A DNA stretch of 37,699 bases from positions 1 through 37,699 of the IMG/VR virus record IMGVR_UViG_3300010885_009135; one strand, written 5' to 3'. The notes under the pieces are model-generated. The model was not told the DNA's origin and ran no database searches. It saw only the letters and a list, made by a program, of their open reading frames with translations. Made by a program: the position numbers and the translations under genes. This stretch comes from a virus. Position 1 is the stretch's first letter, and each line of letters begins with the position of its first letter. Below, piece by piece: positions 2,964 through 35,062 of this stretch.

Positions 2964-2972
2964 CAAATATCC

Positions 2973-7630: not shown

Positions 7631-7633
7631 GAT

Positions 7634-7774
7634 TTACTTCTTACCCTTTGGTGCCGCGCTTCGCTTGACACTATACGCAATAGCCACGGCCTGTTTTGCT
7701 GGCTTTCCAGCAGCAACTTCAGCCTTGATGTTCTTGCGGAAAGCCTCTTTGCTTCCCGATTTCATCAACGGCAT
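7634..7774 (-). CDS. Small basic phage protein
   Basis: 46 residues, Lys/Ala-rich: MPLMKSGSKEAFRKNIKAEV, then AAGKPAKQAVAIAYSVKR and a basic tail KGKK. Small proteins with the pattern 'SGSK...F..N...E...GKP.KQAVAIAY' are common between terminase and portal genes in phages. Their role is unknown to me. The ATG is five bases after the stop of the upstream gene and its TAA lies four bases before the portal ATG. It might bind DNA or be a packaging accessory, but this is inference from charge and place. Confidence 0.7.
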   Translation of the reverse strand: MPLMKSGSKEAFRKNIKAEVAAGKPAKQAVAIAYSVKRSAAPKGKK

Positions 7775-7778
7775 GACG

Positions 7779-8655: not shown

Positions 8656-10190
8656 TAACTCGCCATCCATCCTGTTGCTGTCTGGGACGGAACATAGTGA
8701 CGTGGATTGTTCTTGTCAATGCGATCTCCGCGATATTCGCGTGATGCAACAGGAAACGCGAATGTCAGCGCGATGGCGTCCGCCGCGTCAGGTGACGCGA
8801 CGCCGCGAGACTTCATGTCCTTCTTGCTCTCAAGAAACAGCGTCCCCCGGCTATCCGGCTTCGTCATAGGACCAATCAAGTCACTCTTGAGGAACCTGTC
8901 GCTAGGGATGTGTCCTGCCTTAAGCCACTCGCGCATGTCGCCCCACATCTCGGCGCGCTTGTTGCCCCACATGATCTGGTTCTTGGCTTTGCTGCCGAAG
9001 TTGACGCCTCTAATCTTGTAGCGTTGCTCCTTGAGCCTATCCACGACGCCTGCGCCTAGCCCACCCTCGTCGATGCAGACGAGCGCGGGCTTGAACTCCT
9101 CAATAGCTTCGATGACGTGACCGACAACTTCCATCGTGTCTGCGCCCCGGTGACGGCGCAACTCCACAATGTCCCGCCCGCGCCGGATGGCGATGACGGT
9201 AGCGTCTGCCCCGAAGCGGGCCGGATCAACGCCGATAGTAATCGGCGCCGTCTCGTCCTTGTACTTAGGGCGGCGCATGGCGTCATCGACGAGGCTGGAT
9301 GCGATGAACTGGTCGTCGCCTTCGCTTGGAAACTGGCCGTAGACCTCGACATGGGCTTGGTAGCTGTCGGGGCCGTATTCTTCTATGATGCGCTGGTAGA
9401 TGTTCTTGTCGGTGCCTTCCACGTCGCGAGCGTCCACGTTGCGCTGGTTCCAGAAGGCGCGCTTGTTGTGGAACGTCTCGTAGAAGTAGCCCTTGTTGCG
9501 CCGAGGGTTGGAGAACGCCAGATGAAAGCGGTTCGGCGTGTTCTCCGTGAAGAACCCGTCGCTCACCGCCCAAATGCTGTCAGGGATACCGCTGGCCTCG
9601 TCGAAGATCAGCATGACGCCATCCTCGTTGTGCAGCCCTGCGTAGGCGTCCGGGTTTTCTTCAGACCACAGCCGCCCTTCTGCCGCCCAGTAGCGTGTGC
9701 CTTTCTTCAGGTCGCGTTCGACCAACTCGGTTAGCCACTTGGCGGGCTTGATCTGGGTGGCGGCAATCTCGAACCAGTGGCTGTTGATCGACATCGCCAG
9801 CCACTTGGTAATCTCTGCCCACGTCACCTTCTGAAGCTGCGCCTCGGAGTTGGCCGACACGATGACAGACCCACCGATGCGGGTTGATAGCATCCACGCC
9901 ACCAGCCAACTGACGAGTGCAGACTTGCCGATGCCGCGCCCAGACGCCACGGTTTGCCGCAGCGTGTCAAAGTCAACCTTGCCCTTGTTCTGCTGGATAT
10001 GGTCGCGGATGTCACCTAGCAACTCCCGCTGCCATTTGCGCGGGCCTGTGTGGTTTGCCAGCGGCGTCCCCGCCTCGCCCCATGGGAAGGCCAGATAGAC
10101 GAACGCCAGCGGGTCATCCTTAATGGCGGGCGACCACAGCCGCGACATCAACTCCATCTCGTCCGCAGCTTTGTAGATCGGCTGCTGCAT
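8655..10190 (-). CDS. terL: Terminase large subunit
   Basis: 511 residues; the ATPase and nuclease that packages DNA into procapsids. Walker A is ASGRGIGKSA (about 82-91). Walker B is VMLIFDEASG with Asp197 and catalytic Glu198. The C-terminal RNase-H-like nuclease shows GVDPARFGAD (Asp322), CIDEGGLGAGVVDRL (Asp374) and SPDAADAIAL (Asp468, Asp471), so all catalytic acids are present. Its ATG overlaps the upstream stop (TGATG). Size and motif spacing fit headful-type terminases, in agreement with a circularly permuted genome, though packaging strategy cannot be proved from sequence. Confidence 0.97.
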   Translation of the reverse strand: MQQPIYKAADEMELMSRLWSPAIKDDPLAFVYLAFPWGEAGTPLANHTGPRKWQRELLGDIRDHIQQNKGKVDFDTLRQTVASGRGIGKSALVSWLVAWMLSTRIGGSVIVSANSEAQLQKVTWAEITKWLAMSINSHWFEIAATQIKPAKWLTELVERDLKKGTRYWAAEGRLWSEENPDAYAGLHNEDGVMLIFDEASGIPDSIWAVSDGFFTENTPNRFHLAFSNPRRNKGYFYETFHNKRAFWNQRNVDARDVEGTDKNIYQRIIEEYGPDSYQAHVEVYGQFPSEGDDQFIASSLVDDAMRRPKYKDETAPITIGVDPARFGADATVIAIRRGRDIVELRRHRGADTMEVVGHVIEAIEEFKPALVCIDEGGLGAGVVDRLKEQRYKIRGVNFGSKAKNQIMWGNKRAEMWGDMREWLKAGHIPSDRFLKSDLIGPMTKPDSRGTLFLESKKDMKSRGVASPDAADAIALTFAFPVASREYRGDRIDKNNPRHYVPSQTATGWMAS

Positions 10191-11215
10191 CAGATTACCT
10201 TTCGACGTTTGAATGTCAGAAAGTCTGCCGCTTCTTCTATATTGTCAAACGCCTGCACCAGCGACTGCTGGCCGTTGCGCGGCGTGATGATCGTCGCCAC
10301 CGATTGCCCGTCGCGCTGCTCGGTAAACTGCCCCTTGAGCGCGTAGTCGTCGCTATCCTTGTAGCCGCGCGCACGGATGAGGCAGGCGCGTTTGCCACCC
10401 GGCAACTCAATGCTACCCGTGGCGAACGTATGGATGTGGAACGCCGCGTAGATGTCGGCAGGCTCGTCCATCATCGCCGCGCGTTTCAGCCCGTGCAACT
10501 CGTTGTAGATCGAACTGCCCTTGAAGTTATGCCGCGCCCACGCCGTGGTGACGCCGCCGCAGGGCGACACAATCCGCATCTTGGCGTCCCAATCGCGCAT
10601 CAACACGCGGTTCGTGTTCATGCCCTCGAATATCCGCTTGCCGTGGTTCCATGTGTCGTGGTTTCCCAACAGCCAGATCAGCCAGTTGACACCCAAATCT
10701 TTCAGTGCCCACTCGACCAGTTCCCAGCCTTCGGAGACAGTAGCCGAATGCTCGCCGTAGAGGCGCTCCAGCTTGCCGACCCAGTTGTTGATGCTGTCGC
10801 CGCCGTTCGCGCCGTACATGCCCTCGGTCACGGCGCAGATGCGGGCGTGACGCTCGAAGCCAACCAGATCGCAGTACGGGTCGTCAAGATGCGGATCGCC
10901 GAACCAACAGATACCGTAAGGTCCAGCAATCGGCACCCGGATCGTCTGCCACGCCTGCGCCCGGTCGTGGGCGATACGCAGGCCGTTGCGTAGCTTCATC
11001 GTTGCCAGACGCTCTAGGAACGGCAAGTCTGACGGCGGCAACTCGTCAATGACAAGTTCTCCGGTCGCCAAACTCTGCATATCTGCGGCCTTGAGCGTAT
11101 CCTGCAATGCGCTGCGTGATAGCCCGAGTGCCGCTGCGGTTGCGGTCTGATTGCGACCGTGTGCCTCAAATGCGTTGAGGCGACGTGCTACTTCTTCGGC
11201 GCTAACAGGTATCAA
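10190..11215 (-). CDS. HTH plus calcineurin-like metallophosphoesterase
   Basis: 341 residues. Residues 1-45 hold a helix-turn-helix of the Fis/Hin type (NQTATAAALGLSRSALQDTL). From about 98 comes a metallophosphoesterase with the two-metal motifs in order: FGDPHLDD (Asp107, His109), GGDSINN (Asp140, Asn143), LLGNHDTW (Asn185, His186, Asp187), His229 in WARHN and FHIHTFATG (His260, His262). The set appears complete, so it should be active on a phosphodiester or phosphomonoester. The start is TTG one base after the terS stop, with GAGG about ten bases upstream; no ATG is available before residue 46. It lies between the terminase genes and overlaps terL, so a role in packaging or DNA-end handling is plausible. 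The substrate is unknown. Confidence 0.88.
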   Translation of the reverse strand: MIPVSAEEVARRLNAFEAHGRNQTATAAALGLSRSALQDTLKAADMQSLATGELVIDELPPSDLPFLERLATMKLRNGLRIAHDRAQAWQTIRVPIAGPYGICWFGDPHLDDPYCDLVGFERHARICAVTEGMYGANGGDSINNWVGKLERLYGEHSATVSEGWELVEWALKDLGVNWLIWLLGNHDTWNHGKRIFEGMNTNRVLMRDWDAKMRIVSPCGGVTTAWARHNFKGSSIYNELHGLKRAAMMDEPADIYAAFHIHTFATGSIELPGGKRACLIRARGYKDSDDYALKGQFTEQRDGQSVATIITPRNGQQSLVQAFDNIEEAADFLTFKRRKVI

Positions 11216-11216
11216 A

Positions 11217-11672
11217 TTATTTTTCCTCTAGCCGTGTCGCCTCGGCTACATACTCTACTTGTTCGACGGGGGGAAGGTGTGTGTAAGTTCCTTCAATGAC
11301 GCGCATCTGCGCCTTCTCCAACGCGCCCGTGATGCTGATCTGCTGGTCGATGTTCACGTCAATCTGCTGCTTGGCGACCCACCCATGCTGATGCTTGAGA
11401 ATGTCCAGCGCGGCCTTGGCATCGCCTGCGGCTGCTGCGGCGTACAGCGTCTTGGCGGCGTTGATCTCGCCGTCAGCGCGGCCCTTCATCTCAGCCATCT
11501 CCGCCAGCGGGTCGGCTTCCTGCAAGCGCCGAAACTGTATGGGTGTCAGCCCAGACGCCATCGCCAAACTGTCGCCCTTCAGGCCATACAGCGCGGCATT
11601 ATATATAGCCTCCAACCGCGCCTCAGTTGCCTGTTGGCGCTCGGGTGTGAACGGCAGAGAGTAAAAGGACAT
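11217..11672 (-). CDS. terS: Terminase small subunit candidate
   Basis: 151 residues from the ATG at 11672; a TTG at 11708 would add 12 residues and neither has a strong ribosome site. The N-terminal half has a helix-turn-helix-like stretch (SLAMASGLTPIQFRRLQEAD), then a helical Ala-rich central part (EINAAKTLYAAAAAGDAKAA) and LDILKHQHGWVAKQQIDVNI, a pattern common in small terminases where it leads to the oligomerisation region. It recognises the packaging site and stimulates the large subunit. First gene of the leftward late block, next to the control region. The only doubt is the start. Confidence 0.78.
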   Translation of the reverse strand: MSFYSLPFTPERQQATEARLEAIYNAALYGLKGDSLAMASGLTPIQFRRLQEADPLAEMAEMKGRADGEINAAKTLYAAAAAGDAKAALDILKHQHGWVAKQQIDVNIDQQISITGALEKAQMRVIEGTYTHLPPVEQVEYVAEATRLEEK

Positions 11673-11718
11673 AGGCGATAGCCTAGTTTCTGTTTTGCTG
11701 TTGGTCAACTATTGTTTG

Positions 11719-11947
11719 GCAATAAGCTAAAAAAATAAAAATTGTCTGCGGACGGTCTGTCACAGTCAGTGCGGTCGGTCGGCCCCCCTCCCCCCCTCTC
11801 AGGAAAAATGCGTTTCGCTTGGCGCCGACGCCGGGGCGCTTCGCGTGGCGCTTATTGCTAACGGTTCTCATTAGCAGAGGAAAAACGCCAGCCAGCTTGT
11901 TGCTAATGGTTCGCAATAAGGCTGCATCGTGCTGTTTTGCTTATTGC
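11719..11947. repeat. CTTATTGC repeat family
   Basis: GCAATAAGC at 11719-11727, GCTTATTGC at 11850-11858, GCAATAAG at 11913-11920 and GCTTATTGC at 11939-11947: two copies in each orientation. Two of them are part of a longer pair, TTGCTAACGGTTC (11855-11867) and TTGCTAATGGTTC (11900-11912), 45 bases apart. Such spaced, mixed-orientation copies suggest binding sites for a repressor or initiator. Confidence 0.55.
11783..11800. other. C-rich/G-rich tract
   Basis: The plus strand has runs of six and seven C separated by one T, then CTCTC. The minus strand therefore has G7-A-G6, upstream of the small terminase. It might form G-rich structure in the leftward transcript, but only two G-runs are present, short of a canonical three-layer quadruplex motif. 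Confidence 0.4.
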
Positions 11948-11973
11948 TATTGCGAGTGCTATCGCAATAGCAA
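11944..11973. repeat. Perfect 11-bp inverted repeat
   Basis: TTGCTATTGCG and CGCAATAGCAA are exact reverse complements separated by eight bases. It may be an operator for a dimeric regulator or a strong cruciform or hairpin. It covers the -10 region of the candidate leftward promoter described next, which would suit a repressor site. Confidence 0.6.
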
Positions 11974-11992
11974 ACTTGATAATGCTTGTCAA
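11964..11992 (-). promoter_or_regulatory. Candidate leftward sigma-70 promoter
   Basis: On the minus strand a consensus -35 TTGACA (11992-11987) is followed after 17 bases by TATTGC (11969-11964). The -35 is perfect and the spacing ideal, but the -10 matches only its first half. The -10 lies inside the perfect inverted repeat, which suggests control by a bound protein. It would drive the terminase and late genes. Confidence 0.35.
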
Positions 11993-12040
11993 TAGCGTTC
12001 GATTGCGCGCGCCAGTCTGAATATGAACGGTTGTTCATAA

Positions 12041-12367
12041 TTGGGTCATCCACGATAGAAAAGCATGACCCAACTTTTTCGCTTATGTTATCAATGGTTT
12101 AAGGCCAAAAAAGGCCCAAATAGGCAATTGTCATGCGAAAACACAAACGCACCACGCCGCTATGTACAGCGTCCCCGTCGCGGTAGCGTATTACCCATAT
12201 ACTACACATATATATTTTCATCTCTTCAAAACACAATATTCCAATATATGACCCAAGAATAACGCTAACGCGTTGATAACAGGCAACAAAAGTTGGGTCA
12301 TCGCATTCAGCCCCATGACAAACCCTATAGCTAACCCGTTGATAACAGGAAACAAAAGTTGGGTCAT
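12041..12367. repeat. TTGGGTCAT iteron-like family
   Basis: TTGGGTCAT occurs at 12041-12049, 12293-12301 and 12359-12367, and its complement ATGACCCAA at 12065-12073 and 12248-12256. The copies at 12065, 12293 and 12359 each carry, on the TTTT/AAAA side, a related TGTTATCAA/TTGATAACA element. The result is a composite element with two direct copies and one looser inverted copy. This is the arrangement expected for an origin or a cooperative operator. Confidence 0.6.
12264..12302. repeat. 39-bp direct repeat, copy 1
   Basis: Starts GCTAACGCGTTGATAACAGG and ends AAAAGTTGGGTCATC. It matches 12330-12368 at 37 of 39 positions, 66 bases apart. This is the longest repeat of the control region and includes one TTGGGTCAT element. 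Confidence 0.8.
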
Positions 12368-12368
12368 C
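12330..12368. repeat. 39-bp direct repeat, copy 2
   Basis: Starts GCTAACCCGTTGATAACAGG and ends AAAAGTTGGGTCATC. It differs from copy 1 at two positions. The near-identity of non-coding copies argues for selection on a protein-binding or structural role, or for recent duplication. Confidence 0.8.
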
Positions 12369-12400
12369 CCCGCCGCGTAAACTACCCAAAAACATCTATT

Positions 12401-12429
12401 TTGACCCTCCAACATTACAAGTTGGTAAT
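12401..12429 (+). promoter_or_regulatory. Weak upstream rightward promoter candidate
   Basis: TTGACC (12401-12406), 17 bases, GGTAAT (12424-12429). Its -35 overlaps a GACCCTC element, as does that of the stronger promoter 44 bases downstream. It could be a second early promoter or only a regulator site. Confidence 0.25.
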
Positions 12430-12444
12430 TAAGGGTTATATTGC

Positions 12445-12473
12445 TTGACCCTCAAAAGCGACCCTCATAAGAT
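12445..12473 (+). promoter_or_regulatory. Candidate rightward early promoter
   Basis: TTGACC (12445-12450) and TAAGAT (12468-12473) with 17-base spacing, about 30 bases upstream of the first rightward gene. GACCCTC occurs at 12403, 12447 and 12460, so two copies lie within this promoter and one upstream. That suggests an operator. Host RNA polymerase is presumed to use it because no phage polymerase gene was found. Confidence 0.55.
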
Positions 12474-12503
12474 TGGCGAACGGAAACAAAAGGAGACGAC
12501 GAC

Positions 12504-12716
12504 ATGACCACCTACAATGCCGAGGCGGTCTCCGCCGATCCGCGCGGCCCAGTCCGCAGAATTCAGGCGGTTGATTTGTCTCGCCGCGCAGTTCGCGGCG
12601 ACGGTTGGACCTACCTGACGATGGAACCTTGCGGTCATGTCGGGGCATTCGTGTCACACCACCATTACAACGTCGGCGACGACCAGCATTGTTTCGCCTG
12701 CCGCGCCACCGCCTGA
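12504..12716 (+). CDS. Small Cys/His-containing early protein, unknown
   Basis: 70 residues, first gene of the rightward block, with AAAGGAG upstream of the ATG. The C-terminal half is PCGHVGAFVSHHHYNVG followed by DQHCFACRATA, which supplies a Cys, several His and a CxxC pair, enough for a zinc site. The N-terminal half is Arg-rich and polar. As the first product made, it may act on host functions or regulate transcription, but I recognise no family. Confidence 0.65.
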   Translation: MTTYNAEAVSADPRGPVRRIQAVDLSRRAVRGDGWTYLTMEPCGHVGAFVSHHHYNVGDDQHCFACRATA

Positions 12717-12746
12717 ACAATCCAATCAAAGGAACAATCCAATGAC
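12708..12746. repeat. 39-bp translation-start repeat, copy 1
   Basis: From ACCGCCTGAACAATCC through CAAAGGAAC to the ATGAC of the next gene; identical to 12948-12986 except for one base (12739/12979). It includes the stop codon of the preceding gene, the AAAGGA ribosome site and the start codon of the 66-residue gene. Confidence 0.9.
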
Positions 12747-12942
12747 CGCATCACATAGCATGCTGCACTATCTAGTTACCGGCGATAAGCTATGGAATGG
12801 CGTTATCGTTACCGCGCCACTAGCTGCCGCATATAATCGTCTGACAGACAAAATTGCATCATATGACAGCAAGGGGCGCAATGCGCCGGAAAACCTATTG
12901 AACGGTCGGCACAACTTGCTCAATGGTCATTATAACTGGTAG
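12742..12942 (+). CDS. 66-residue protein of unknown function
   Basis: Starts at the ATG at 12742 with AAAGGA upstream. The protein is mixed (SMLHYLVTGDKLWNGVIVTA, then LAAAYNRLTDKIASYDSKGR) and ends with a short internal repeat, NLLNGRHNLLNGHYNW. No membrane segment or known motif. It is flanked by two 39-bp copies of a start-site sequence exactly 240 bp apart, so it looks like a gene cassette gained or duplicated as a unit. Codon use resembles the rest of the block less well (more AT at third positions). Confidence 0.6.
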   Translation: MTASHSMLHYLVTGDKLWNGVIVTAPLAAAYNRLTDKIASYDSKGRNAPENLLNGRHNLLNGHYNW

Positions 12943-12947
12943 CACCA

Positions 12948-12986
12948 ACCGCCTGAACAATCCAATCAAAGGAACAATACAATGAC
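12948..12986. repeat. 39-bp translation-start repeat, copy 2
   Basis: Second copy, in front of the 114-residue gene. Here the CCTGA has no coding role, because the preceding gene stops eight bases earlier with TAG. It is therefore a relic of a gene end, which supports a 240-bp insertion or duplication event. Confidence 0.9.
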
Positions 12987-13326
12987 AGCCAAAACCATTT
13001 ACGAAATCCACGACGCTGCATTCGCTCGCGTCTCCGCCTACGTCATCCTTGATACGACTGGCGCACTCGTCGCCACCGTGTCGATCAAATATCCGACGGA
13101 CGGCGCGGGACGCCTTTACGCCTACGTCCACGTCATCGGCGCGCCTATGGTGCGCGGTAGCGCGTCCGGCGGCGGCTATGACAAGCGCAGCGCCGCTTGC
13201 GCCAGTGCCGCCAAGGCTAGCAAGGATTGGCCGGACGCCTTCCGCGCCGCCATGATGGCGAATGCTGGCGCGTCATGGGACCGCGCGGTCTCCGATGCGG
13301 GGTATATCGTCCATCAGGCCATCTAA
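12982..13326 (+). CDS. 114-residue early protein, unknown
   Basis: The N-terminal half is beta-like (FARVSAYVILDTTGALVATV, then GRLYAYVHVIGAPMVRG). A Gly/Ser-rich SASGGGYDKRSAACASAAKA leads into a helical C-terminus (FRAAMMANAGASWDRAV). I recall similar small proteins on phages and plasmids without a known function. Good ribosome site within the repeated leader. A long perfect hairpin follows its stop. Confidence 0.7.
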   Translation: MTAKTIYEIHDAAFARVSAYVILDTTGALVATVSIKYPTDGAGRLYAYVHVIGAPMVRGSASGGGYDKRSAACASAAKASKDWPDAFRAAMMANAGASWDRAVSDAGYIVHQAI

Positions 13327-13333
13327 TTTCATA

Positions 13334-13372
13334 GGCCTTCAAAATAGTGCTTTACATGCTATTTTGAAGGCC
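13334..13372 (+). terminator. Strong hairpin after the 114-residue gene
   Basis: GGCCTTCAAAATAG and CTATTTTGAAGGCC pair perfectly over 14 bases around an 11-base loop, eight bases after the stop codon. No T-run follows, so it may be a factor-assisted terminator, an mRNA-stabilising end or a processing site. It is AT-rich in the upper stem. Confidence 0.5.
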
Positions 13373-13449
13373 CTAATAGTGGACTTGTCCAACCGCCCTC
13401 AAACATCTCCCCGCCCTTCAACGCCTGCTACCGGAACGCTCCTCTAATT

Positions 13450-13478
13450 ACTACCGCCTCTTTAGCAAGGGCGGTAGT
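13450..13478 (+). terminator. Second hairpin before the clamp-like gene
   Basis: ACTACCGCC and GGCGGTAGT form a nine-base-pair stem around 11 bases, 41 bases before the next ATG. No T-run. With 13334-13372 it makes a tandem hairpin pair in the 193-bp gap, which holds no other gene. It may separate expression of the first small genes from the rest. Confidence 0.4.
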
Positions 13479-13519
13479 GTTAAGCCTCTCTCCTTCACAC
13501 TCTCATAAGGTAAAATCAA

Positions 13520-14095
13520 ATGACAACTAATGCACTCACAATCTCCGCTAATGTCCTTCGCGCTGCACTTGTTTGCGCATCGACGGACCCGCACCGCTAC
13601 TACCTTCACGGCGTTTATGTGGACCCGCGCGGCTATCTCGTCTCGACCGACGGACACCGTATGTTTGTCGGCAAGATTGACGTTAGCAACGGGATCGGCT
13701 TTGAAGGCTGGATAATTCCGGCTGGCGTCGTCAAGCGCGCGTTGACCGGCCATAAGGCTGCAATGATCGACATTAGCCCGACACGTTGCGGTGACATTGG
13801 ATGCGAGCCTGTAGACGGCACATTCCCAGATTGGACGCGCGTAGTCGCCCCTGCGGACGTGTCAAACGTCCCGGCGCAGTTTAACCCCGCATATATCGGC
13901 GATATGGGTAAGATTGCCGCCGCACTATCGGGTAGCAAATCCGCACCAGTCCACGTCCACTATAACGGCGACGGCCCTACGCCTATCACGTTCCCGTCGT
14001 ATGAATACCTAGCTTTTGCTATCCTACTGCCTATCCGGCAGGCGCATAATTTGATGGATTGGGAAGCAACCCGCAGCGAAACTATGCCCGCCTGA
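13520..14095 (+). CDS. Beta sliding clamp-like protein
   Basis: 191 residues, about half the length of a bacterial DnaN. The stretch RYYLHGVYVDPRGYLVSTDG followed by HRMFVGKID resembles the central-domain signature of clamps (the 'G...V.TDGHRL' motif). FEGWIIPAGVVKRAL, then PDWTRVVAP, follow in the order seen in phage clamp-like proteins, which usually carry only part of the three-domain clamp. It could act as a processivity factor for the phage polymerase or capture the host polymerase, since the replication genes lie downstream in the same block. SD ATAAGG upstream. Confidence 0.72.
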   Translation: MTTNALTISANVLRAALVCASTDPHRYYLHGVYVDPRGYLVSTDGHRMFVGKIDVSNGIGFEGWIIPAGVVKRALTGHKAAMIDISPTRCGDIGCEPVDGTFPDWTRVVAPADVSNVPAQFNPAYIGDMGKIAAALSGSKSAPVHVHYNGDGPTPITFPSYEYLAFAILLPIRQAHNLMDWEATRSETMPA

Positions 14096-14107
14096 CAACC
14101 CCGCCTA

Positions 14108-14129
14108 GGGGCGGCAATGGTGCCGCCCC
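14108..14129 (+). terminator. GC-rich hairpin after the clamp-like gene
   Basis: GGGGCGGCA and TGCCGCCCC pair perfectly around ATGG, 12 bases after the stop codon. No T-run follows. It may attenuate transcription or protect the upstream message. Confidence 0.5.
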
Positions 14130-14149
14130 AACCCCTGAAAGGACATATC

Positions 14150-14367
14150 ATGACCGACACACCCCAAGCACTTGCCACCGCCGCCCTAGATGCCGCGCTG
14201 CTAGCCGCCGCCGCCGCCGCCGCACTATATGACGCCGCGCGGGAGACGCTAACAGACTTGCAGATTGCCGAAGAACTTGCAGAAACCGCAGCACACGAAG
14301 CTAAAAATGTTTACGATGCCGCGTGTGAGTTAGTGATCGCCGCCCGCTCCGTTGCAGGGTTTGAAGC

Positions 14368-14371
<4 letters not shown>
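14150..14371 (+). CDS. Alanine-rich helical small protein
   Basis: 73 residues from the ATG at 14150 (GAAAGGA upstream). Over one third Ala, with a run LLAAAAAAALYDAARETLTD-like (residues 18-38) and then acidic helices (QIAEELAETAAHEAKNVYDA). Probably a helical hairpin or bundle. It starts the array of overlapping small genes: the next ATG overlaps its stop (ATGA). No function recognised. Confidence 0.6.
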
Positions 14372-14594
<223 letters not shown>

Positions 14595-14598
<4 letters not shown>

Positions 14599-14678
14599 AC
14601 ATCGCCCAAGGCGTCATCATGGCGCTATGTCTCGTCATCATCGTCATTGCGATGAACGTATTGGAGTACATCCTATGA
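14595..14678 (+). CDS. 27-residue membrane micro-protein
   Basis: GTG start overlapping the preceding stop (GTGA) and a stop overlapping the next start (ATGA). The peptide, beginning MNIAQGVIMALCLVIIVIAM, is a single hydrophobic helix with a short polar end (NVLEYIL). The double overlap and the near-perfect membrane-helix composition favour a real gene. Function unknown; membrane-active small phage proteins include holin-like and superinfection-exclusion types. Confidence 0.5.
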
Positions 14679-14938
14679 GCGCATCCGAAGCCTCCGCGCG
14701 GCTGGCGTGGGCGAGAGCCGCCGTGTCAACAACGCGCGAAATCGCCAACGACCGCCGCGACCAGTTTGAGGCGCTCGCGACCCTAGTTGACGACGACACA
14801 GATTGCCCCGCGTTTATCGTGGCCTCGTGCGACGCCGCGCTGGCACTCCTCAACCGCGCGGATGCGAGAGCGCAAGAGGCGTGGCTCGAACTTCGCGCGG
14901 CAAAAGCAGACTACGCAGCATTGGAGCCAAAGCCATGA
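14675..14938 (+). CDS. Helical small protein, unknown
   Basis: 87 residues from the ATG at 14675, overlapping the previous stop. Two helical segments (ASARLAWARAAVSTTREIAN and LALLNRADARAQEAWLELRA) are linked by an acidic loop (VDDDTDCPAF). It ends AALEPKP; the next gene ends EALEPKP, from a 24-bp DNA repeat shared by both gene ends. ATGA overlap with the next gene. Confidence 0.6.
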   Translation: MSASEASARLAWARAAVSTTREIANDRRDQFEALATLVDDDTDCPAFIVASCDAALALLNRADARAQEAWLELRAAKADYAALEPKP

Positions 14939-14940
14939 CC
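14917..14940. repeat. 24-bp gene-junction repeat, copy 1
   Basis: Starts AGCATTGGAGCC and ends AAAGCCATGACC; identical to 15102-15125. It holds the last codons of one gene, a GGAG ribosome site and the ATGA junction with the next. Confidence 0.9.
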
Positions 14941-15123
14941 GATACACCAGTTAACCGCCGCGCTGATGCCAAAAACGCTGCCTCAGATGATTACGCCGCT
15001 GCCGCCCGCGCCTACCACGCCGCCATTGCCGCCGCTGACGCTACCTACGCCGCTGAGTACGCCGCTACCTACGCCGCCTCGTGTATACGATTTTCCCGCG
15101 AAGCATTGGAGCCAAAGCCATGA
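14935..15123 (+). CDS. Alanine/tyrosine-repeat small protein
   Basis: 62 residues. The middle is a near-repeat of Ala with Tyr (DDYAAAARAYHAAIAAADAT, then YAAEYAATYAAS), coded by imperfect 9-base repeats built on TACGCCGCT. The end, EALEPKP, is shared with the preceding gene. ATGA overlaps on both sides. A helical low-complexity protein with no recognised function. Confidence 0.5.
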   Translation: MTDTPVNRRADAKNAASDDYAAAARAYHAAIAAADATYAAEYAATYAASCIRFSREALEPKP

Positions 15124-15125
15124 CC
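15102..15125. repeat. 24-bp gene-junction repeat, copy 2
   Basis: Exact copy of 14917-14940, at the junction with the Lar-like gene. The bases before and after differ, so the repeat covers just the gene end, ribosome site and start. Confidence 0.9.
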
Positions 15126-15521
15126 ATTGACGATACACTTTTGCCGTGTCCATTTTGTGGGGGTGCGGCGCGATGCGGGGAATACTCGCCAAGCTGGGAT
15201 ACCACGATGCAGATCGTGAGCTGCGGCACATGCGAAATGTCCGTCGACAGGAGGTTTCGTAGCGAGGCCCTCGCCGCGTGGAACCGCCGCACCCCAGACC
15301 CCGAAGCCGCCCACATCGAGGCCGAGCGCGACGCAGCGATTGCGCGGATCGAGGCATACAAGACGATGCTGGTACAAGCGGAAAGAGACGTTCTCGACAA
15401 TAAGGTACGCACGACTGCGGCGATTGTAGCGTGGATGCGCGGCATCGCACTATCGCGGACGATGAGGGTCGCTGCTAACCGAATCGAAGCAGGCGAACAT
15501 TTGAAGGGACCAAAGCTATGA
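15120..15521 (+). CDS. Lar-type restriction alleviation protein
   Basis: 133 residues. Residues 7-57 match the Lar family: LLPCPFCGGAARCGEY, then IVSCGTCEMSVDR and SEALAAWNRR, with the two CxxC pairs (Cys10/Cys13, Cys35/Cys38) expected for a zinc ribbon. Lar of Rac prophage alleviates type I restriction by modulating host enzymes. The C-terminal 75 residues are helical (AHIEAERDAAIARIEAYKTM) and common in phage versions. Start ATG overlaps the previous stop. The family call is firm; activity against restriction is only known for a few members. Confidence 0.8.
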   Translation: MTIDDTLLPCPFCGGAARCGEYSPSWDTTMQIVSCGTCEMSVDRRFRSEALAAWNRRTPDPEAAHIEAERDAAIARIEAYKTMLVQAERDVLDNKVRTTAAIVAWMRGIALSRTMRVAANRIEAGEHLKGPKL

Positions 15522-15703
15522 ACGCGCGGCTAGACCTAGACCCTATGGCATCACGGCACGACCCGCCATTGACGCCCCTAGGGCGCCCTAATGGGCAGAA
15601 CCGCAGCCGCAAGCGGCATTTTGGATACAAGACAGGAGTAGCATTGATGGCAATCGTATTAGGCTTTTTGATCGGCCTTATTATCGTGATGTTGACAGCA
15701 TGA
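15518..15703 (+). CDS. Small tail-anchored membrane protein
   Basis: 61 residues. The first 38 are polar and basic (NGQNRSRKRHFGYKT), and the last 20 form one membrane helix (VALMAIVLGFLIGLIIVMLT). The basic region would stay in the cytoplasm. ATGA overlaps with both neighbours. With the 27-residue peptide it is the second membrane micro-protein in the array. No family recognised. Confidence 0.6.
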   Translation: MNARLDLDPMASRHDPPLTPLGRPNGQNRSRKRHFGYKTGVALMAIVLGFLIGLIIVMLTA

Positions 15704-16335
15704 CCGACAGCACACCCATAAACCCGCTTAGTGGACGAGATCGCACTCAATATGGCACATCAGCCACGGATCATGGACTACACGCCGGACCCGCTTTACA
15801 AGACAGCCGCCCTGCCTCGCATCCTGACATTGCGACGACTGCAAACCCGAGCAGCTATGACCCCGCGCGAGCAAAAAGAACTGAAAAGGCTAGAGGCTAC
15901 GCAACGGGACACGGAGTACGACTGGCATCGACGCCAGCGGCAGGCGCAGGCAGCAAGAGAGCGCAAGCAGAAGCAGCAAAGCGACTTGATAGACGTATCG
16001 CCCGCGCCAATCGAACCGCGTCTGTAGAAGCCTACGAGCGGGGCGACGACTCGATTGATACGCTGGCAGCAAAGCATGGCCTGACACATCGCAAGTTTCT
16101 GGTATGGGTCTATGACGAGCGCAGGAGGCCACCTAAGCTGCATAAGGATGTCGAACCGCCAGAACCCAAGTTGCCACGCGTTCGCAACCCTGACGACGGC
16201 TTGTTGATCGGCGCAGGCGGTCACATGACCGACCCGGCGGTTCGCAAGGCGACGTTGCGGCTAGAGGAACGCATCACCGCGCTGCAATACCGCCAGAACA
16301 TGCCGACCTTCACATATCGAAAGACACTACCATGA
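15700..16335 (+). CDS. Open frame with a real-looking C-terminal half
   Basis: 211 codons open from an ATG overlapping the previous stop. The C-terminal half, from about residue 108 (SVEAYERGDDSIDTLAAKHG, then LTHRKFLVWVYDERRRPPKL), reads like a helix-turn-helix protein with good codon use and ends in an ATGA overlap with the next gene. The first 105 codons are poor in G/C at third positions, while another frame (15731-16027) fits much better there. No start codon for a separate downstream gene exists near 16020. So either both frames are used, ribosomes shift by -1 from the inner frame, or one base is wrong near 16020. Confidence 0.5.
   Translation: MTDSTPINPLSGRDRTQYGTSATDHGLHAGPALQDSRPASHPDIATTANPSSYDPARAKRTEKARGYATGHGVRLASTPAAGAGSKRAQAEAAKRLDRRIARANRTASVEAYERGDDSIDTLAAKHGLTHRKFLVWVYDERRRPPKLHKDVEPPEPKLPRVRNPDDGLLIGAGGHMTDPAVRKATLRLEERITALQYRQNMPTFTYRKTLP
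15731..16027 (+). CDS. Overlapping charged protein in the +2 frame
   Basis: 98 residues from a GTG; an ATG follows at 15752. It reads MDYTPDPLYKTAALPRILTL, then TPREQKELKRLEATQRDTEY and a basic, Gln-rich helix (RRQRQAQAARERKQKQQ). In a sampled stretch (15721-15780) about 70% of third positions are G/C, against about 30% in the longer frame, so this frame is probably the coding one here. It stops at TAG 16025 just where the other frame takes over. It may be the N-terminal part of one frameshifted protein or a separate gene. Confidence 0.5.
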   Translation: MDEIALNMAHQPRIMDYTPDPLYKTAALPRILTLRRLQTRAAMTPREQKELKRLEATQRDTEYDWHRRQRQAQAARERKQKQQSDLIDVSPAPIEPRL

Positions 16336-16580
16336 TCAAAGAATGCCCTGAGTGTGGCTACACCAAGCCGCCCAAGCCCCGCACCCCGCGCGGACGCCCC
16401 ACGACTTACGGACTTGAAGCTATGGCCCTATGGGATGAAGTGCTGCTACCGTTTGCGAACGCTTCTGACGTCAAGCGGATCAGGCGCAACCTGTCACAGT
16501 ATGGTGTAAGACATAACCGTTTCTTCACTGGCAAGATTGATCACGCCAAGGGTCATATTGTCGTGACGCGAGCAGAATAA
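16332..16580 (+). CDS. Small zinc-knuckle protein with RGRP motif
   Basis: 82 residues; ATGA overlap with the frame before. The N-terminus has one CxxC pair (IKECPECGYTKPP) and PRTPRGRPTTYG, which contains the AT-hook core RGRP. The rest (LWDEVLLPFANASDVKRIRR, then NLSQYGVRHNRFFTGKI) is a folded helical segment. Probably binds DNA or RNA; no family recognised. Last of the overlapping array. Confidence 0.6.
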   Translation: MIKECPECGYTKPPKPRTPRGRPTTYGLEAMALWDEVLLPFANASDVKRIRRNLSQYGVRHNRFFTGKIDHAKGHIVVTRAE

Positions 16581-16586
16581 CGCCAC

Positions 16587-16607
16587 TTGCTAAACATTTT
16601 TTGACGG
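16587..16607 (+). promoter_or_regulatory. TTGCTAAA-type motif, copy 1
   Basis: TTGCTAAACATTTTTTGACG lies 33 bases before the DUF2800 gene; the closely related TTGCTAAAGTTTCTTTGACG lies before the VRR-NUC gene (22881-22900), 17 of 20 identical. Both sit at the start of a gene group following a gap. It could hold a -35 (TTGCTA or TTGACG), but the -10 is unclear, so a middle promoter or regulator site is only a suggestion. Confidence 0.4.
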
Positions 16608-16639
16608 CCTATGTAGGTCAGACAGTAAAGGGGAATTCA

Positions 16640-17749
16640 ATGAAACACAGTAACATTGTCGGCGGTTCGTCCGCTAAACGCGTGATGGAATGCCCCGGCA
16701 GCGTGGCCCTAGTGGCACGTATGCCGGAGCAACCGAGCAGCACCTACGCGGATGAAGGGACGTTGCTGCACGACGTGATAGCGGACGCCTTGAACGGCAT
16801 AGATAGCCCGCTAGGCCGGACGCACGGCACGGCTATACTGACGCAGGAATTGATTGATGAGAAGATCACTCCCGCGCTAGACGCACTGGACGAGATCGAC
16901 GCGCACAACCAGATGGAATACGCCATAGAAAGCGAGGTTTCGTTCGGCAAATATCTGCCCGACGTGTTCGGTTCAGCCGACTATCTGGGCCGCATGAGCG
17001 ACAGAGCGATTGTGCTGGATTGGAAATTTGGCAGCGGCGTCATCGTCACCGCTGAGGAAAACGCCCAGTTGATGTTTTACGCCGCCGCCGCCATGCGGAC
17101 ACATGCAACGGCATGGGTGTTTGACGGCGCGACCGAGGTTGAGTTGGTCATCGTTCAGCCGCCAGAAGTGCGGCGTTGGGTGACAAGCATAGACCGCATC
17201 AAGGCGTTCGAACACGACCTGAAGGCAGCGGTCACGCTGTCAGCACGGCCTGACGCCCCGCTGAAGGCTGGCGCACACTGCAAGTGGTGCCGCGCCAAGT
17301 CTATCTGTCCTATCATGACCGGCGCGGTTGACCGCGTGGCTAAGGCCAAGCTGGACGCCCTGCCCGTCGATCAGATCGCGCACTATCTGGATCAGATACC
17401 TGTTGTCGAAGCGTTCCTGAAGGACTTGCAGCAATTGGCGCATACAATGATCGAAGGTGGCAAGACCATCCCCGGCTGGAAGCTGGTCAACAAGCGCGCA
17501 ACGCGGCGTTGGCTGGATGAAGAACAAGCAGCCAAGTTTATAATGAATGCCGGTGTCGGCGCGTATGAACTCAAGATTAAATCGCCAGCAGCAGTTGAAA
17601 AAGAACTGAAAAAGGCGAAGATAGAATTGCCCGCTGACCTAGTAGTCGCGGTCTCAAGCGGTAGCACTCTGGCCCCGGCGGATGACCCCCGGCAAAGCGT
17701 GTTGCAAATCGGACAGGTGCTAATTTCGGCCCTGTCCAAAATCCAATAG
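16640..17749 (+). CDS. DUF2800, Cas4/RecB-like nuclease
   Basis: 369 residues from the ATG at 16640 (AAAGGGG upstream). N-terminus HSNIVGGSSAKRVMECPGSV is the DUF2800 signature. PD-(D/E)XK core: Asp114 in FGSADYLG, Asp127 and Lys129 in LDWKFG, Gln143 in ENAQLMFYAAA. Cys18 plus Cys214, Cys217 and Cys223 (HCKWCRAKSICP) match the one-plus-three cysteines of Cas4/AddB-type iron-sulphur clusters. It probably processes DNA ends for recombination or replication. It heads the same gene set found in many phages: DUF2800, an ssDNA-binding type protein, DNA polymerase, helicase, VRR-NUC and SNF2 helicase. Confidence 0.85.
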   Translation: MKHSNIVGGSSAKRVMECPGSVALVARMPEQPSSTYADEGTLLHDVIADALNGIDSPLGRTHGTAILTQELIDEKITPALDALDEIDAHNQMEYAIESEVSFGKYLPDVFGSADYLGRMSDRAIVLDWKFGSGVIVTAEENAQLMFYAAAAMRTHATAWVFDGATEVELVIVQPPEVRRWVTSIDRIKAFEHDLKAAVTLSARPDAPLKAGAHCKWCRAKSICPIMTGAVDRVAKAKLDALPVDQIAHYLDQIPVVEAFLKDLQQLAHTMIEGGKTIPGWKLVNKRATRRWLDEEQAAKFIMNAGVGAYELKIKSPAAVEKELKKAKIELPADLVVAVSSGSTLAPADDPRQSVLQIGQVLISALSKIQ

Positions 17750-30512: not shown

Positions 30513-31547
30513 TTACCCGCCGCTATACGCATATGGCGCAAAGGTTGTCCCCGCACCGCTGAGTGGGGCTAGCCCACCAAGGGTTTGATCGCCGCCGAGA
30601 TAGCCCGTTCCGCTGCCTAGCATGGTAGACGTTGGCACATAACCGCCTATACCACCAAGATAACTACTCAACATCTTATTTGACCCATAAGTCTGAGCAG
30701 CGTTACCAACACCACTCAACGCACCACTCAACGCGTTCGCGGAACCAACGTAGCCAGACGCGCGGGCTTGCCCTGCGTTGTAGGCGTTCGTGGCTGAGTT
30801 CTGGCCCTGCTGCTGCGACGCGCTCGTCAACATGTTCGTCGCAGTTTGGCCTGCACCCATCAGCGATTGCAGCGGGTTCAACTGGTTAGACCGATTGGTC
30901 TGGTAGCGGTTGAACGCATTGCCGTATTCTTGGCTCGCCAAGTCCTGCCCGAAGCGTTGAATGCCCTTCAGCGCACCGCCAGACAGCAAGCCACCCCGCG
31001 CTGACGCGGAGCGATCCAGCGCCTTCAATCCTTCAGATTGGCGAAAGGCATAGCCGGGGTCTTCCGTGAAGTCCGACATGGAGAAGTCTTTGGCGTATTT
31101 GCCGAAGTCAGCAGGCTGTGCGCCGCCCTGCGCCGTGGGCAGGGGGTTTGCAGCCATGTAGGCGTTAACGTCGCTGACGACTTGGCCTTGCTTGTCAAGA
31201 TATACAGGTTGGCCTCCGCCACCACCGAAGTCACCGCCGCTAGGAATGTTAAGCTGCGTCAAGCCGTAGTCAGCAGGGTTTGTTGACGTGCCGCCATAGC
31301 CACCACCACCCCCGCTAGGCGCGTTCAAGCCCAACAGGTTCATGATGCGGCCCTGCGCCGTAAGCCCCGCCTGACGAAACGGCTCTTGCAGTGCAACCTG
31401 ATTTTGATACTGCTTATCTTGCGCCGCCGCCGCTTCACGCGATGCTTGTAGTTGCGTATTGGCCGCGCTCTTAGCGCCGCCTGCGACGATCAATCCACCA
31501 CCGATTGCGGCCACGCCGCCAACTATTGCCGCTACAACTGCGCCCAT
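30513..31547 (-). CDS. DNA-transfer protein, gp7-like
   Basis: 344 residues. Begins with a Gly-zipper membrane segment (GAVVAAIVGGVAAIGGGLIV), then a basic/Gln helix (QASREAAAAQDKQYQNQVAL). A Gly-rich linker (about 80-110) is followed by FGKYAKDFSMSDFTEDPGYA and FRQSEGLKALDRSASARGGL, a motif common in phage DNA-transfer/ejection proteins. The C-terminal third is Gly/Ser/Asn-rich. It is first of the three ejection candidates and starts right after the cupin-SET gene. Confidence 0.72.
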   Translation of the reverse strand: MGAVVAAIVGGVAAIGGGLIVAGGAKSAANTQLQASREAAAAQDKQYQNQVALQEPFRQAGLTAQGRIMNLLGLNAPSGGGGGYGGTSTNPADYGLTQLNIPSGGDFGGGGGQPVYLDKQGQVVSDVNAYMAANPLPTAQGGAQPADFGKYAKDFSMSDFTEDPGYAFRQSEGLKALDRSASARGGLLSGGALKGIQRFGQDLASQEYGNAFNRYQTNRSNQLNPLQSLMGAGQTATNMLTSASQQQGQNSATNAYNAGQARASGYVGSANALSGALSGVGNAAQTYGSNKMLSSYLGGIGGYVPTSTMLGSGTGYLGGDQTLGGLAPLSGAGTTFAPYAYSGG

Positions 31548-31548
31548 G

Positions 31549-32403
31549 TTACTTGGCTCCCATCGACAGCGTTAATGCTTGTCTGTAATCTATGGTTATT
31601 TCATCACCTACAATACCACCTTTGCAGCCAGAAAGCACCTGTGTTGAAAACAGATATATGTCGTCTTTGTCGTCCTTGAACATGACGGCGTTCGGCCTGC
31701 ATGAGTGATTGGTAAAGCGTCCTGCTGGCGTCCGTTTGCCATTGATGCGGGCGGGCGCAATCAGTTCATGCGCCGCGATGTCGCCACTGGCAAAGACGCC
31801 CCTGCCGTGGATGCGCGAGGGGCCTATCTGCATCTTGTAGCTTCCAAGCGGCATAGGTATCTGGTCGTCCAGATGCTCTGACAGCGCCGTGACGATCTCA
31901 GGGGCAAACCCAAATTCTTCTATAGCTTTTGCAAAATCTTCGTGGTCTGCCGAGTGATCGTAAGCTATCAGAAGTGTACGCGCTTGTTGAGCATCTTGTG
32001 ATGCTACGGTCTTGTCAAGCAGCCGCGTTTCCAGCGCATCTACGTCCGTCTCGTTTGCTGCATAGACGTTCTGCCAGCGAACAGTCTCGTGGATATACGC
32101 GATCTTGCGCCCTGCTGGCGCGATAAATGTCTGCGGGGCAACCAACTCAGTATAAGTTCCATCTGAATTTATGAGCGTAAGACGGCCTTCGGCCATTATG
32201 TTGATGTGCGGAAATTTCTGGTGATGCCCGATGACGCAAGCACCAGCAGGCATGACCACTTCACGGATATACACGCCGGGGCCGAAGTGATGGGTAAGGG
32301 GGCAATCAACCTGTTCCTCACGCAGAAAGGCGATCTCCAGCTTTCCGACATCTTCTTCGGTAAACGTCTTGCCTACAACTGGCGACATATCAACGGTCAG
32401 CAT
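31549..32403 (-). CDS. Cupin-SET domain fusion protein
   Basis: 284 residues in two parts. Residues 40-110 form a cupin-like beta-barrel: GPGVYIREVVMPAGACVIGH, then HQKFPHINIMAEGRLTL, with His60, His61 and His66 and Glu72 placed like metal ligands. Residues 194-275 carry SET motifs: IGPSRIHGRGVFASG (SAM site), GRFTNHSCRPNAVM and GDEITIDYR (Asn232, His233, Tyr273). A helical linker (120-180) joins them. SET proteins transfer methyl from SAM to lysine; here the part between the motifs is very short and no post-SET cysteines exist. Start ATG overlaps the preceding stop. It stands among tail and ejection genes, so it may be a virion component or modify a virion or host protein. Confidence 0.85.
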   Translation of the reverse strand: MLTVDMSPVVGKTFTEEDVGKLEIAFLREEQVDCPLTHHFGPGVYIREVVMPAGACVIGHHQKFPHINIMAEGRLTLINSDGTYTELVAPQTFIAPAGRKIAYIHETVRWQNVYAANETDVDALETRLLDKTVASQDAQQARTLLIAYDHSADHEDFAKAIEEFGFAPEIVTALSEHLDDQIPMPLGSYKMQIGPSRIHGRGVFASGDIAAHELIAPARINGKRTPAGRFTNHSCRPNAVMFKDDKDDIYLFSTQVLSGCKGGIVGDEITIDYRQALTLSMGAK

Positions 32404-32738
32404 CAGCTTACCAGACGGCCTGACGCGCGGATGTTGATAGACGCAGCCGTGCCTGCGATGGTGGAGATGAAGCCGTTGTTCGGCAGCACCTGTCCTACCA
32501 GTTCGGGAAACGTGTACGTTTCAGCCGCCTGAAGCGTCTTGGTCTTGACAATCAAGTTGTCGTTGCCCGCAGAGCCAGCAGAAGCCACAAGGTTGACGCT
32601 GATCGTCGCGGGCGATGCCGAATAGTTCGTAGCCGTGAACTTGTCGATGATCGTCTGCACACCTGTCGAGGTGTACTGCGTGAACTGCGTAGCCTCGGCG
32701 ATCTTGGCCGGAATGATGTTGCTGATATATACGGCCAT
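32403..32738 (-). CDS. Small beta-rich virion-type protein
   Basis: 111 residues. MAVYISNIIPAKIAEATQFT, then IDKFTATNYSASPATISVNL, with a beta-sandwich-like rest that ends SINIRASGRLVS. I recall this as a recurrent small protein near phage tail fibres, without function. Its stop overlaps the cupin-SET ATG (TGATG), so the two are translated together, which may hint at a joint role. Confidence 0.65.
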   Translation of the reverse strand: MAVYISNIIPAKIAEATQFTQYTSTGVQTIIDKFTATNYSASPATISVNLVASAGSAGNDNLIVKTKTLQAAETYTFPELVGQVLPNNGFISTIAGTAASINIRASGRLVS

Positions 32739-32747: not shown

Positions 32748-33620
32748 TTATACCGACGTAACTGTTTGCCAAGCCGCGCCGCTGTAGACGCACAACTTAG
32801 CCAATGTCGTATCAAATACCATTAATCCCGCAGCAGGACCAGAGATGGCGTTCTTCTGCGTCGTCGTCATGTTGGGCATACGAACGCCCTTGGTCGTAGA
32901 CTGCACATCAAGAAGCGCCGATGCGTTGGCAGTGGTTCCAATCCCCACGTTTCCTGACGAGCCAATACGTATGGTTTCAACGCCGCTATTGCTAATGGCG
33001 ATGTTGCCTGTGGCGGGCGACCATATCCCCGTGTTGGTGTTGCCCGTAAATGTATACGCGGGCGTTCCCACAGCGCCCAAGCCGGTAGCGATGCTGGTTG
33101 CGCTAGCAACACCTAGAATTGGTGTGACGAGAGTTGGCGTGTTCGATAAGACTACCGCAACCGTGCCGGTTGAGGTCGTAACGCCCGTACCGCCGTTGGT
33201 GACGTTAAGTGTGCCACCTAGCGTGAATGTGCCGCTAGTCGTTATCGGCGAGCCAGTGAAAGTAAGACCTGTAGTGCCGCCTGACGCGCCAACCGACGTG
33301 ACGGTCCCAAACAACGAAGGCGGAGCAACCAATATGTCATTTTGAAACGTATAGAATTGGCTTGCAAGCGCTGCCGTGCGCGAAAGGCTATCTGGTGCGC
33401 TGTTAACTTCCTGAGCCAGATCGGTCAACATAGCATCATAGGATGCTATCAGGGAGTTAGCATCAACTAGCAGAGATGCTTCTTGCTGAGTAACTTCCGC
33501 AGAGTTTCGAAGCGACAAAAAGAACCGATACCACTCGCGGCTAATCGCGCCCGACCGCTCGTCGATGAACGCGACGCGCGGCGGAGTTATCTGCGTAGGG
33601 TTGATAGTTGGCCCAGCCAT
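32748..33620 (-). CDS. Fibre-like protein, virion-attachment and C-terminal head
   Basis: 290 residues. N-terminal 75 are helical with an IDERSGAISREWYRFFLSLR segment that recurs at the N-terminus of phage fibre proteins. The middle has GGTGVTTSTGTVAVVLSNTP, then AYTFTGNTNTGIWSPATGNI and ETIRIGSSGNVGIGTT, as in the fibre-like protein at 3900-4967. The C-terminus GVRMPNMTTTQKNAISGPAA, then YSGAAWQTV is a frequent fibre tip. ATG overlaps the gp10-type stop. Its place directly after gp10 suggests it attaches to the tail. Confidence 0.75.
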   Translation of the reverse strand: MAGPTINPTQITPPRVAFIDERSGAISREWYRFFLSLRNSAEVTQQEASLLVDANSLIASYDAMLTDLAQEVNSAPDSLSRTAALASQFYTFQNDILVAPPSLFGTVTSVGASGGTTGLTFTGSPITTSGTFTLGGTLNVTNGGTGVTTSTGTVAVVLSNTPTLVTPILGVASATSIATGLGAVGTPAYTFTGNTNTGIWSPATGNIAISNSGVETIRIGSSGNVGIGTTANASALLDVQSTTKGVRMPNMTTTQKNAISGPAAGLMVFDTTLAKLCVYSGAAWQTVTSV

Positions 33621-35062
33621 CAGGCGCGGGTTCCGCTAAGAAGAAGTTCAGCACCCATGATATACACGCGCACGGGGTCAGAACCAGATACCTCGTAAAC
33701 GCGGTCACGGATTTTCATGGTTGCGCCAAGCCGACGCCAGATCGTGCGCTTCCCATATTGGCCTATTGTCCCCATCGACTTCCAATGCTCATTCGACCAA
33801 GTGTGCCCGCCATCATCTGACCAGCGCAGCATGACTTCCGAATTGCTGCCTTGCCCCGTGTTCAGACCAACGCCGGTTTCGCAATCAAGCTGCATAGAGT
33901 GTTGGATCGTGCGTGTGAGCGTGTTAGCGCCCGTTGGTAGCGCCCGCCACGAACGCAGCCACTTCTGCGGCTGACCGTTGTCGGCGTAAACGTCCAGATC
34001 AAACGTGTAAAGATTGCCGTTCTCGTAGTCGCCCACAACGATGTTGCTCTGAAAGTTGCACATGTTGTTGGCACGATGGCGGTTGAACACGCCATTAGCG
34101 AACGCCGCCCGCTCATGCCAAGCGCCGGTAGCCACGTCAAACACCCACGTCGTGTTGGCGCTAGGAAAGTTCAAAACGTAGAAGCTATGGCCGTCCTGCT
34201 GGTAGGTGTAGCCGGTAGCGTCTGATGTATTGGCATACTGCTGTATCTGCCACTCAATAGCGTGGGTTGAGATACGCTGACCGATATACCCCGACGCACG
34301 GTAAACCATACCTTGTCCGCGCGCGTCTTGGCCCAGCCAGTAAATCTGGTTGTCCATCTTGGTGACCGAATAGGGCGAAGCGCAGCCGAGTTCGTTGAAC
34401 GCGCCTTGGATGCGGTCTAGCGGAAAATCTAGGTTGCCCGAATTATACCAAACTTCGGTTGTGTTTGTCCCAAATACCCACAATTCGCGGTGATCGGCAA
34501 ACACCGACACGACGCCATCAGGTGAACCTTCGGCGCTGGCAAACTCTAGCGGGTCGATGCTGGTGCCGTCCAATAGAGTGGTCACCCAAATTTTCTGAGT
34601 GTCTGGCTCGTTGAACACAAAGTATCCATCCAGATACGCCACAGTAACAGCGCCGGGGAAGTCTGGGTCTGTGATAGGGCCAAATGCGCCAGTGTCTGCA
34701 TTATAAATGAAACCGCTGGGATTGCAGGCAATGAAAATCTGTATGCCGTTATCGGCGATAGATACCGGGCCTGTGCCGTTGATCACGCCGAGAAGTTGCG
34801 GCGTTGCGGTCAGGCTTTCCAGCTTGTAAAACTCATTGCCTGACGCAACGTAGAACGCGGTGCCTGTGCTTTGCCGCACCCATAGCCCACGAATGGGGCC
34901 GGTGCCGACAGACTGCAAGAAACTAAGCCCCGGCGCGCGCTGAAGGAACGCGGGTTCCTTACCACCTTCGGGGACAATCTCAGGGAACAGATTGACCATA
35001 CGGTTGTCGGCAGCGTTGACGCTGCGCGCGACATACGCACTGCCTAATATTGGACTTTTCAT
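33620..35062 (-). CDS. Packaged-DNA stabilisation protein, P22 gp10 type
   Basis: 480 residues; P22 gp10 has 472. Begins MKSPILGSAYVARSVNAADN, then RMVNLFPEIVPEGGKEPAFL and LQRAPGLSFLQSVGTGPIRG, the family signature, followed by beta-propeller-like repeats (FADHRELWVFGTNTTEVWYN, then GCASPYSVTKMDNQIYWLGQ). It plugs the tail after packaging and bridges gp4 to the needle in P22. It follows the gp4-type gene, as in P22. Confidence 0.92.
   Translation of the reverse strand: MKSPILGSAYVARSVNAADNRMVNLFPEIVPEGGKEPAFLQRAPGLSFLQSVGTGPIRGLWVRQSTGTAFYVASGNEFYKLESLTATPQLLGVINGTGPVSIADNGIQIFIACNPSGFIYNADTGAFGPITDPDFPGAVTVAYLDGYFVFNEPDTQKIWVTTLLDGTSIDPLEFASAEGSPDGVVSVFADHRELWVFGTNTTEVWYNSGNLDFPLDRIQGAFNELGCASPYSVTKMDNQIYWLGQDARGQGMVYRASGYIGQRISTHAIEWQIQQYANTSDATGYTYQQDGHSFYVLNFPSANTTWVFDVATGAWHERAAFANGVFNRHRANNMCNFQSNIVVGDYENGNLYTFDLDVYADNGQPQKWLRSWRALPTGANTLTRTIQHSMQLDCETGVGLNTGQGSNSEVMLRWSDDGGHTWSNEHWKSMGTIGQYGKRTIWRRLGATMKIRDRVYEVSGSDPVRVYIMGAELLLSGTRA

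Follow-up and report, generated by a model that had tools for sequence, protein, structure and literature searches.

The window, by which we mean the whole 37,699-nt stretch analysed here (IMG/VR viral record IMGVR_UViG_3300010885_009135, positions 1 to 37,699), carries a cupin-SET fusion gene in its virion gene block, immediately before the gene for the first ejection protein:

31549..32403, minus strand: cupin-SET fusion gene (284 aa, ATG start; PHROG 34170; Pfam SET)
32403..32738, minus strand: 111-aa protein, no function assigned; its stop overlaps the cupin-SET start
30513..31547, minus strand: first ejection protein, P22 gp7-like (PHROG 598, DNA ejection, E = 7e-42); starts 1 nt past the SET stop codon
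28857..30494, minus strand: candidate second ejection/internal virion protein (PHROG 873, endolysin, E = 5e-16, residues 243-352)
33620..35062, minus strand: head closure Hc3, P22 gp10-like (PHROG 578, E = 2e-134)

The reading frame, its start-stop coupling to a small upstream gene and the ejection genes downstream are just as the first-pass annotation had read them from the letters. The gene is translationally coupled at both ends: on the coding strand, the stop of the 111-aa gene overlaps the cupin-SET start in the junction TGATG, and the cupin-SET stop TAA is separated by a single base from the ATG of the ejection gene in the junction TAACATG. Comparison with a 94%-identical gene (locus L007) gives a dN/dS of 0.09 overall and 0.08 in the SET part, and the gene is therefore under strong purifying selection. 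Elsewhere in the window, the genes at 32748-33620 and 3900-4967 match nearly the same stretch (profile positions ~215-279) of PHROG 28766, tail fiber, a fibre module common to these two genes of the phage.

The encoded protein is divided as follows:

32059..32313, minus strand: cupin (RmlC-like beta-barrel), residues 31-115, without the canonical 3His/1Glu metal motif
31552..31956, minus strand: SET module, residues 150-284 (helical segment 151-176 plus SET core)
31579..31854, minus strand: SET core, residues 184-275, without the SET-I insert
31798..31806, minus strand: SAM-binding G200-x-G202
31690..31719, minus strand: R229-x-x-N232-H233...N238 motif (SAM pocket)
31585..31602, minus strand: E268-x-T-x-D-Y273 with the catalytic tyrosine

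The SET identity, proposed in the first pass from the motifs IHGRGVFA (residues 198-205), NHSCRPNA (232-239) and GDEITIDY (266-273), is borne out by both the profile search and the structure prediction that had been suggested. Pfam SET (PF00856) matches the window protein at 31 bits (curated cut-off 22.4; E = 3.7e-7) and matches all 67 aligned relatives; PHROG 34170 covers residues 15-278 (E = 3.9e-79), and a search of NCBIfam gave no match. The AlphaFold2 model, computed from 67 aligned sequences (the window and IMG/VR loci), has a pLDDT of 91 and a pTM of 0.86. In VIA-align comparisons, modelled residues 184-274 superimpose on the SET domain of MLL1/KMT2A, the best structural match, with Z 10.3 (80 residues, 1.9 Å, 32% identity), and the modelled SET core superimposes on vSET of PBCV-1 (PDB 3kma) with Z 9.4 (80 residues, 1.9 Å). 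The match covers 80 of the 124 residues of the MLL1 chain, which has a SET-I and a post-SET segment, both absent from the window protein. vSET is, like the window SET half, a small viral SET enzyme, but it is the H3K27 methyltransferase of a chlorovirus (an algal virus), acts on a eukaryotic histone, is not joined to a cupin, and has more sequence between GxG and NHS than the window protein.

The residues that bind SAM and carry out catalysis in SET enzymes are the best preserved part of the family. Among 75 representatives less than 80% identical to each other (pairwise identity down to 22%), G202, R229, N232 and H233 are invariant, G200 and N238 are each kept in 74, and E268 and Tyr273 are present in all 74 that have letters at those positions. 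Twenty columns are conserved at 95% or more, 12 of them in the SET half, and these include every position of the SAM-binding and catalytic motifs; the same residues are kept in the free-standing SET copies described below. Judged from the alignment, such conservation is that expected of a working SAM-dependent enzyme, and the SET half is probably an active protein methyltransferase. Its target is most likely lysine, by analogy with established SET enzymes.

The short segment between the SET motifs, which had been taken to indicate a minimal fold, corresponds to a missing SET-I: relative to ordinary bacterial SET proteins there is a gap of ~27 residues, and the signature ARI-x-x-x-RTPAGRYxNHS stands in its place. 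The gap extends through the whole subfamily, free-standing members included, so the earlier remark was right, and the shortness is a family trait rather than decay. In known SET enzymes, SET-I helps substrate binding and varies in length, so its absence marks a subfamily and does not exclude SET membership. By its sequence, the window protein thus belongs to a minimal, SET-I-less SET subfamily, and a SET domain that is naturally minimal in this way is useful for understanding substrate choice.

The N-terminal half had been called cupin-like, and the modelled fold agrees: residues 31-115 match small cupins over ~85 residues with VIA-align Z scores of 8.5-8.9 (PpnP, Z 8.9). Family profiles support the assignment as well: Cupin_2 is matched by 10 of 67 relatives at E ≤ 0.1. 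The cupin half of the window protein has no Pfam match of its own. The window protein also matches the cupin families PHROG 12032, 'short tail fiber' (E = 5.8e-29), and PHROG 24280, 'tail fiber adhesin' (E = 6e-22). The 3His/1Glu ligand columns are unconserved: the HxH motif reads H66-x-N68, E72 is variable, and the histidine of motif 2 is replaced by Val, Ile or Ala. These metal ligands are absent in many cupins. Between the cupin and the SET core the model has a helical segment (~121-176), and free-standing SET versions in bacterial genomes (L337, L338 and L339) start at its 151-176 part; this helical linker is part of the SET module and moves with it.

The cupin-SET fusion is carried by hundreds of short-tailed water phages, in which it adjoins the genes of injected proteins. 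Three IMG/VR scans, by which the family was widened, each returned 567-579 candidate stretches encoding a relative. The first-pass annotation had placed the gene beside ejection genes in the virion block and proposed a search of related phages for the same gene at the same place; the arrangement recurs there, as the next gene encodes a gp7-like ejection protein in 122 of 137 loci with enough downstream DNA (within ~20 nt in 116), and Hc3 lies upstream in 107 of 129 relatives. The 111-aa protein family is found in 55 of the 129 relatives having enough upstream DNA, and the larger ejection proteins have few detectable homologues (21 and 34 ORFs). The cultured Rhodoferax phage P26218 has the same gene order, and its annotation notes a similarity of the gene to a putative tail fibre protein (of RSK1); Pseudoalteromonas phage PH1 also keeps this order.

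The position can be occupied by the cupin without the SET module. Phages BA3, VvAW1, X14 and Amaethon and the T7-like Sphaerotilus phage R1 have proteins of PHROG 12032/24280 that share the cupin fold, the family and the slot but have no SET module, and no cupin-only protein fused to any other enzyme was found. On a cupin-domain tree, parsimony requires at least nine changes in SET presence, of which well-supported branches force four; the tree is built on few columns, which makes the exact number unsure. The slot thus belongs to the cupin as its older occupant, and SET is an optional add-on, gained or lost repeatedly. Neither the wide spread of the family, nor the SET-less cupins in the slot, nor the linker that travels with SET was part of the first-pass annotation.

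In P22 (order gp10-gp26-gp14-gp7) the cupin-SET slot is held by gene 14 (L356:3912-4364; DUF2824), annotated as head morphogenesis, and in T7 (order gp12-gp13-gp14) the equivalent slot is held by gene 13 (L355:2808-3221; PF11090), a probable scaffold according to Pfam. These two proteins share the slot with cupin-SET but are unrelated to it in sequence, and possibly have a GNAT-like fold, neither cupin nor SET; the window protein has no homology to DUF2824 or PF11090, SET being its sole Pfam match at E ≤ 1. In the T7-like phage phiPsa17, the gp13 homologue is absent from the list of detected virion proteins (PMC4517105). The scaffold and morphogenesis annotations and the phiPsa17 list favour a morphogenesis role for the slot.

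From the modelled fold, the conserved catalytic residues, the purifying selection, the slot and the gene coupling, all obtained by computation, we infer catalysis, lysine specificity and a substrate. The reading we put first, with about even confidence, is that the protein is an active SAM-dependent SET methyltransferase whose cupin, seated in the gene 14/13 slot, brings SET to its substrate, likely an ejection or tail protein. The cupin occupies the morphogenesis slot that separates the head-closure/tail genes from the gene of the first ejection protein; there it would probably bind an assembly intermediate or an ejection protein, and would thereby present the substrate to the SET domain late in assembly. 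The likeliest substrate would be an ejection or tail protein encoded by the next genes, with the ejection proteins as the best candidates. Ejection proteins are clustered in one operon and form a channel through the cell envelope (review PMC8954989). Three points stand against this reading: SET-I, an aid to substrate binding in known enzymes, is missing; free SETs occur by replication genes in elements without recognisable virion genes; and no lysine in ejA, Hc3, Ad3 or MCP is conserved solely in SET-bearing as opposed to SET-less phages. Because no SET-linked lysine was found in these four proteins, a host substrate stays a serious rival.

On that rival account, which we hold to be possible but clearly less probable, SET would methylate a host protein (one of the nucleoid, the ribosome or a defence system, for instance), late in infection or after ejection, and the cupin would merely package or stabilise it. 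In its favour is the mobility of the SET module, free copies of which stand beside primase and helicase genes in bacteria. In Rhodocyclales bacterium GT-UBC (L351), a free SET gene (15061-15618) lies in a 9,561-bp integrative element (7119-16732) that is bounded by 53-nt direct (att) repeats at 7119 and 16680, of which the right-hand copy lies within tRNA-Met, and that encodes a tyrosine integrase, a primase/helicase, a single-strand binding protein (SSB) and the SET protein. No capsid, portal or terminase gene was detected in this element, several ORFs of which are without assignment, and it is probably a phage satellite carrying the SET module. In Comamonadaceae ALPHA2B (L338, 4866-9048), a free-standing SET follows primase and helicase genes and is itself followed by unassigned ORFs of 265 and 501 aa and an SLT transglycosylase (8026-9048), an arrangement like an ejection cassette; capsid genes were not detected nearby. 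In Paraburkholderia ferrariae (L339, 4665-6112), cupin and SET are encoded by two separate ORFs that overlap by 4 nt, beside replication and integrase genes and with a tmRNA gene further downstream (L350:7086-7455); here a mobile element carries the fusion in split form. A plasmid search for free SET found none, and a search of the three genomes that carry a free-standing SET for a helper podovirus prophage (Hc3, PHROG 578) likewise found none. The substrate thus need not be a virion protein, since free copies neighbour replication genes in elements where no virion genes are recognisable. The host-directed account is at odds, however, with the phage fusion being almost always locked to ejection genes, and with the cupin alone persisting in the slot without SET.

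A broader variant of the virion reading, speculative and rather improbable as it stands, would have the slot hold an enzyme that modifies amino groups on ejected proteins, a GNAT in P22 and T7 and a cupin-tethered SET here, and so controls assembly or release of the ejectosome, with satellites having captured SET so as to act on phages of this type. The GNAT fold is only suggested: the model of P22 gp14 is poor (pLDDT 43), its top 50 Foldseek matches are GNAT acyltransferases or uncharacterised GNAT-like relatives (best VIA Z 8.6 for the low-confidence model against GNAT entries), for T7 gp13 the sequence match to spermine/spermidine acetyltransferase is weak and below significance (E 0.39), and hhalign found no match between P22 gp14 and E. 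coli SpeG. Should the fold be confirmed, three lineages would have folds of amine-modifying enzymes in the slot, which for now is a lead.

It is quite unlikely that the SET half is a structural relic, a beta-clip module retained as a tail or assembly part and an enzyme no more. The absent SET-I, the cupin half without its canonical metal motif and the 'tail fiber' labels on cupin-only homologues are in keeping with such a relic, but conservation across 75 diverged members is highest at the SAM-binding and catalytic residues, which free copies also keep, and a structural part has no need of GxG, NH and Tyr. Least probable of all is a receptor-binding short tail fibre with an accessory SET domain, which follows the PHROG 12032/24280 annotations and the RSK1 note in P26218: those labels come from annotation transfer (an experimental source was sought and none was found), a separate gene of the window (999-2966) is tail-spike-like, P22 and T7 have morphogenesis or probable scaffold proteins in the slot, and gp13 of phiPsa17 is not among the detected virion proteins.

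Literature searches found no description of a phage cupin-SET fusion, or of a SET enzyme in phage assembly or injection, in keeping with the first-pass remark that no role for such a fusion was described; the P26218 paper is silent on the gene, and the Shewanella phage X14 paper is without mass spectrometry. The sequence family itself is already catalogued, as PHROG 34170, which has the same two-domain architecture and is listed as of unknown function with no literature attached, and in BFVD as 'SET domain containing protein' entries of uncultured phages; to this the present analysis adds the fold, the slot and the conserved catalytic residues. What is new is the architecture and the genomic setting of this minimal SET enzyme. 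Phage biology hardly considers protein-lysine methylation, and a very common, conserved and probably active enzyme at the P22 gp14/T7 gp13 position opens a direct test of post-translational modification of ejection and assembly proteins in podovirus infection.

Several smaller observations concern the distribution of the gene. Two different cupin-SET genes lie ~83 kb from each other on one contig of Paraburkholderia sp. FW106_bin.8 (L329 and L333), both with an ejection gene after them, and probably mark two such prophages in the genome. The cupin-SET gene also stands on contigs of 32-35 kb (L326, L327 and L328) that binning had assigned to an archaeon, Lentisphaera and Anaerolineae; L327 has the MCP-Ad3-Hc3-ejection block as well, and these contigs are probably misbinned phage genomes. 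In MW202557.1 the cupin-SET gene (L004:4356-5240) is unannotated, and an adjoining opposite-strand ORF, probably spurious, is annotated 'contryphan-vn-tryptophan'. The SET half alone, used as query, gives weak SET-like matches (E 0.02-0.05) in Pelagibacter phage Kolga (MT375529) and cyanophages P-SSM7 (GU071103) and P-RSM6 (HQ634193).
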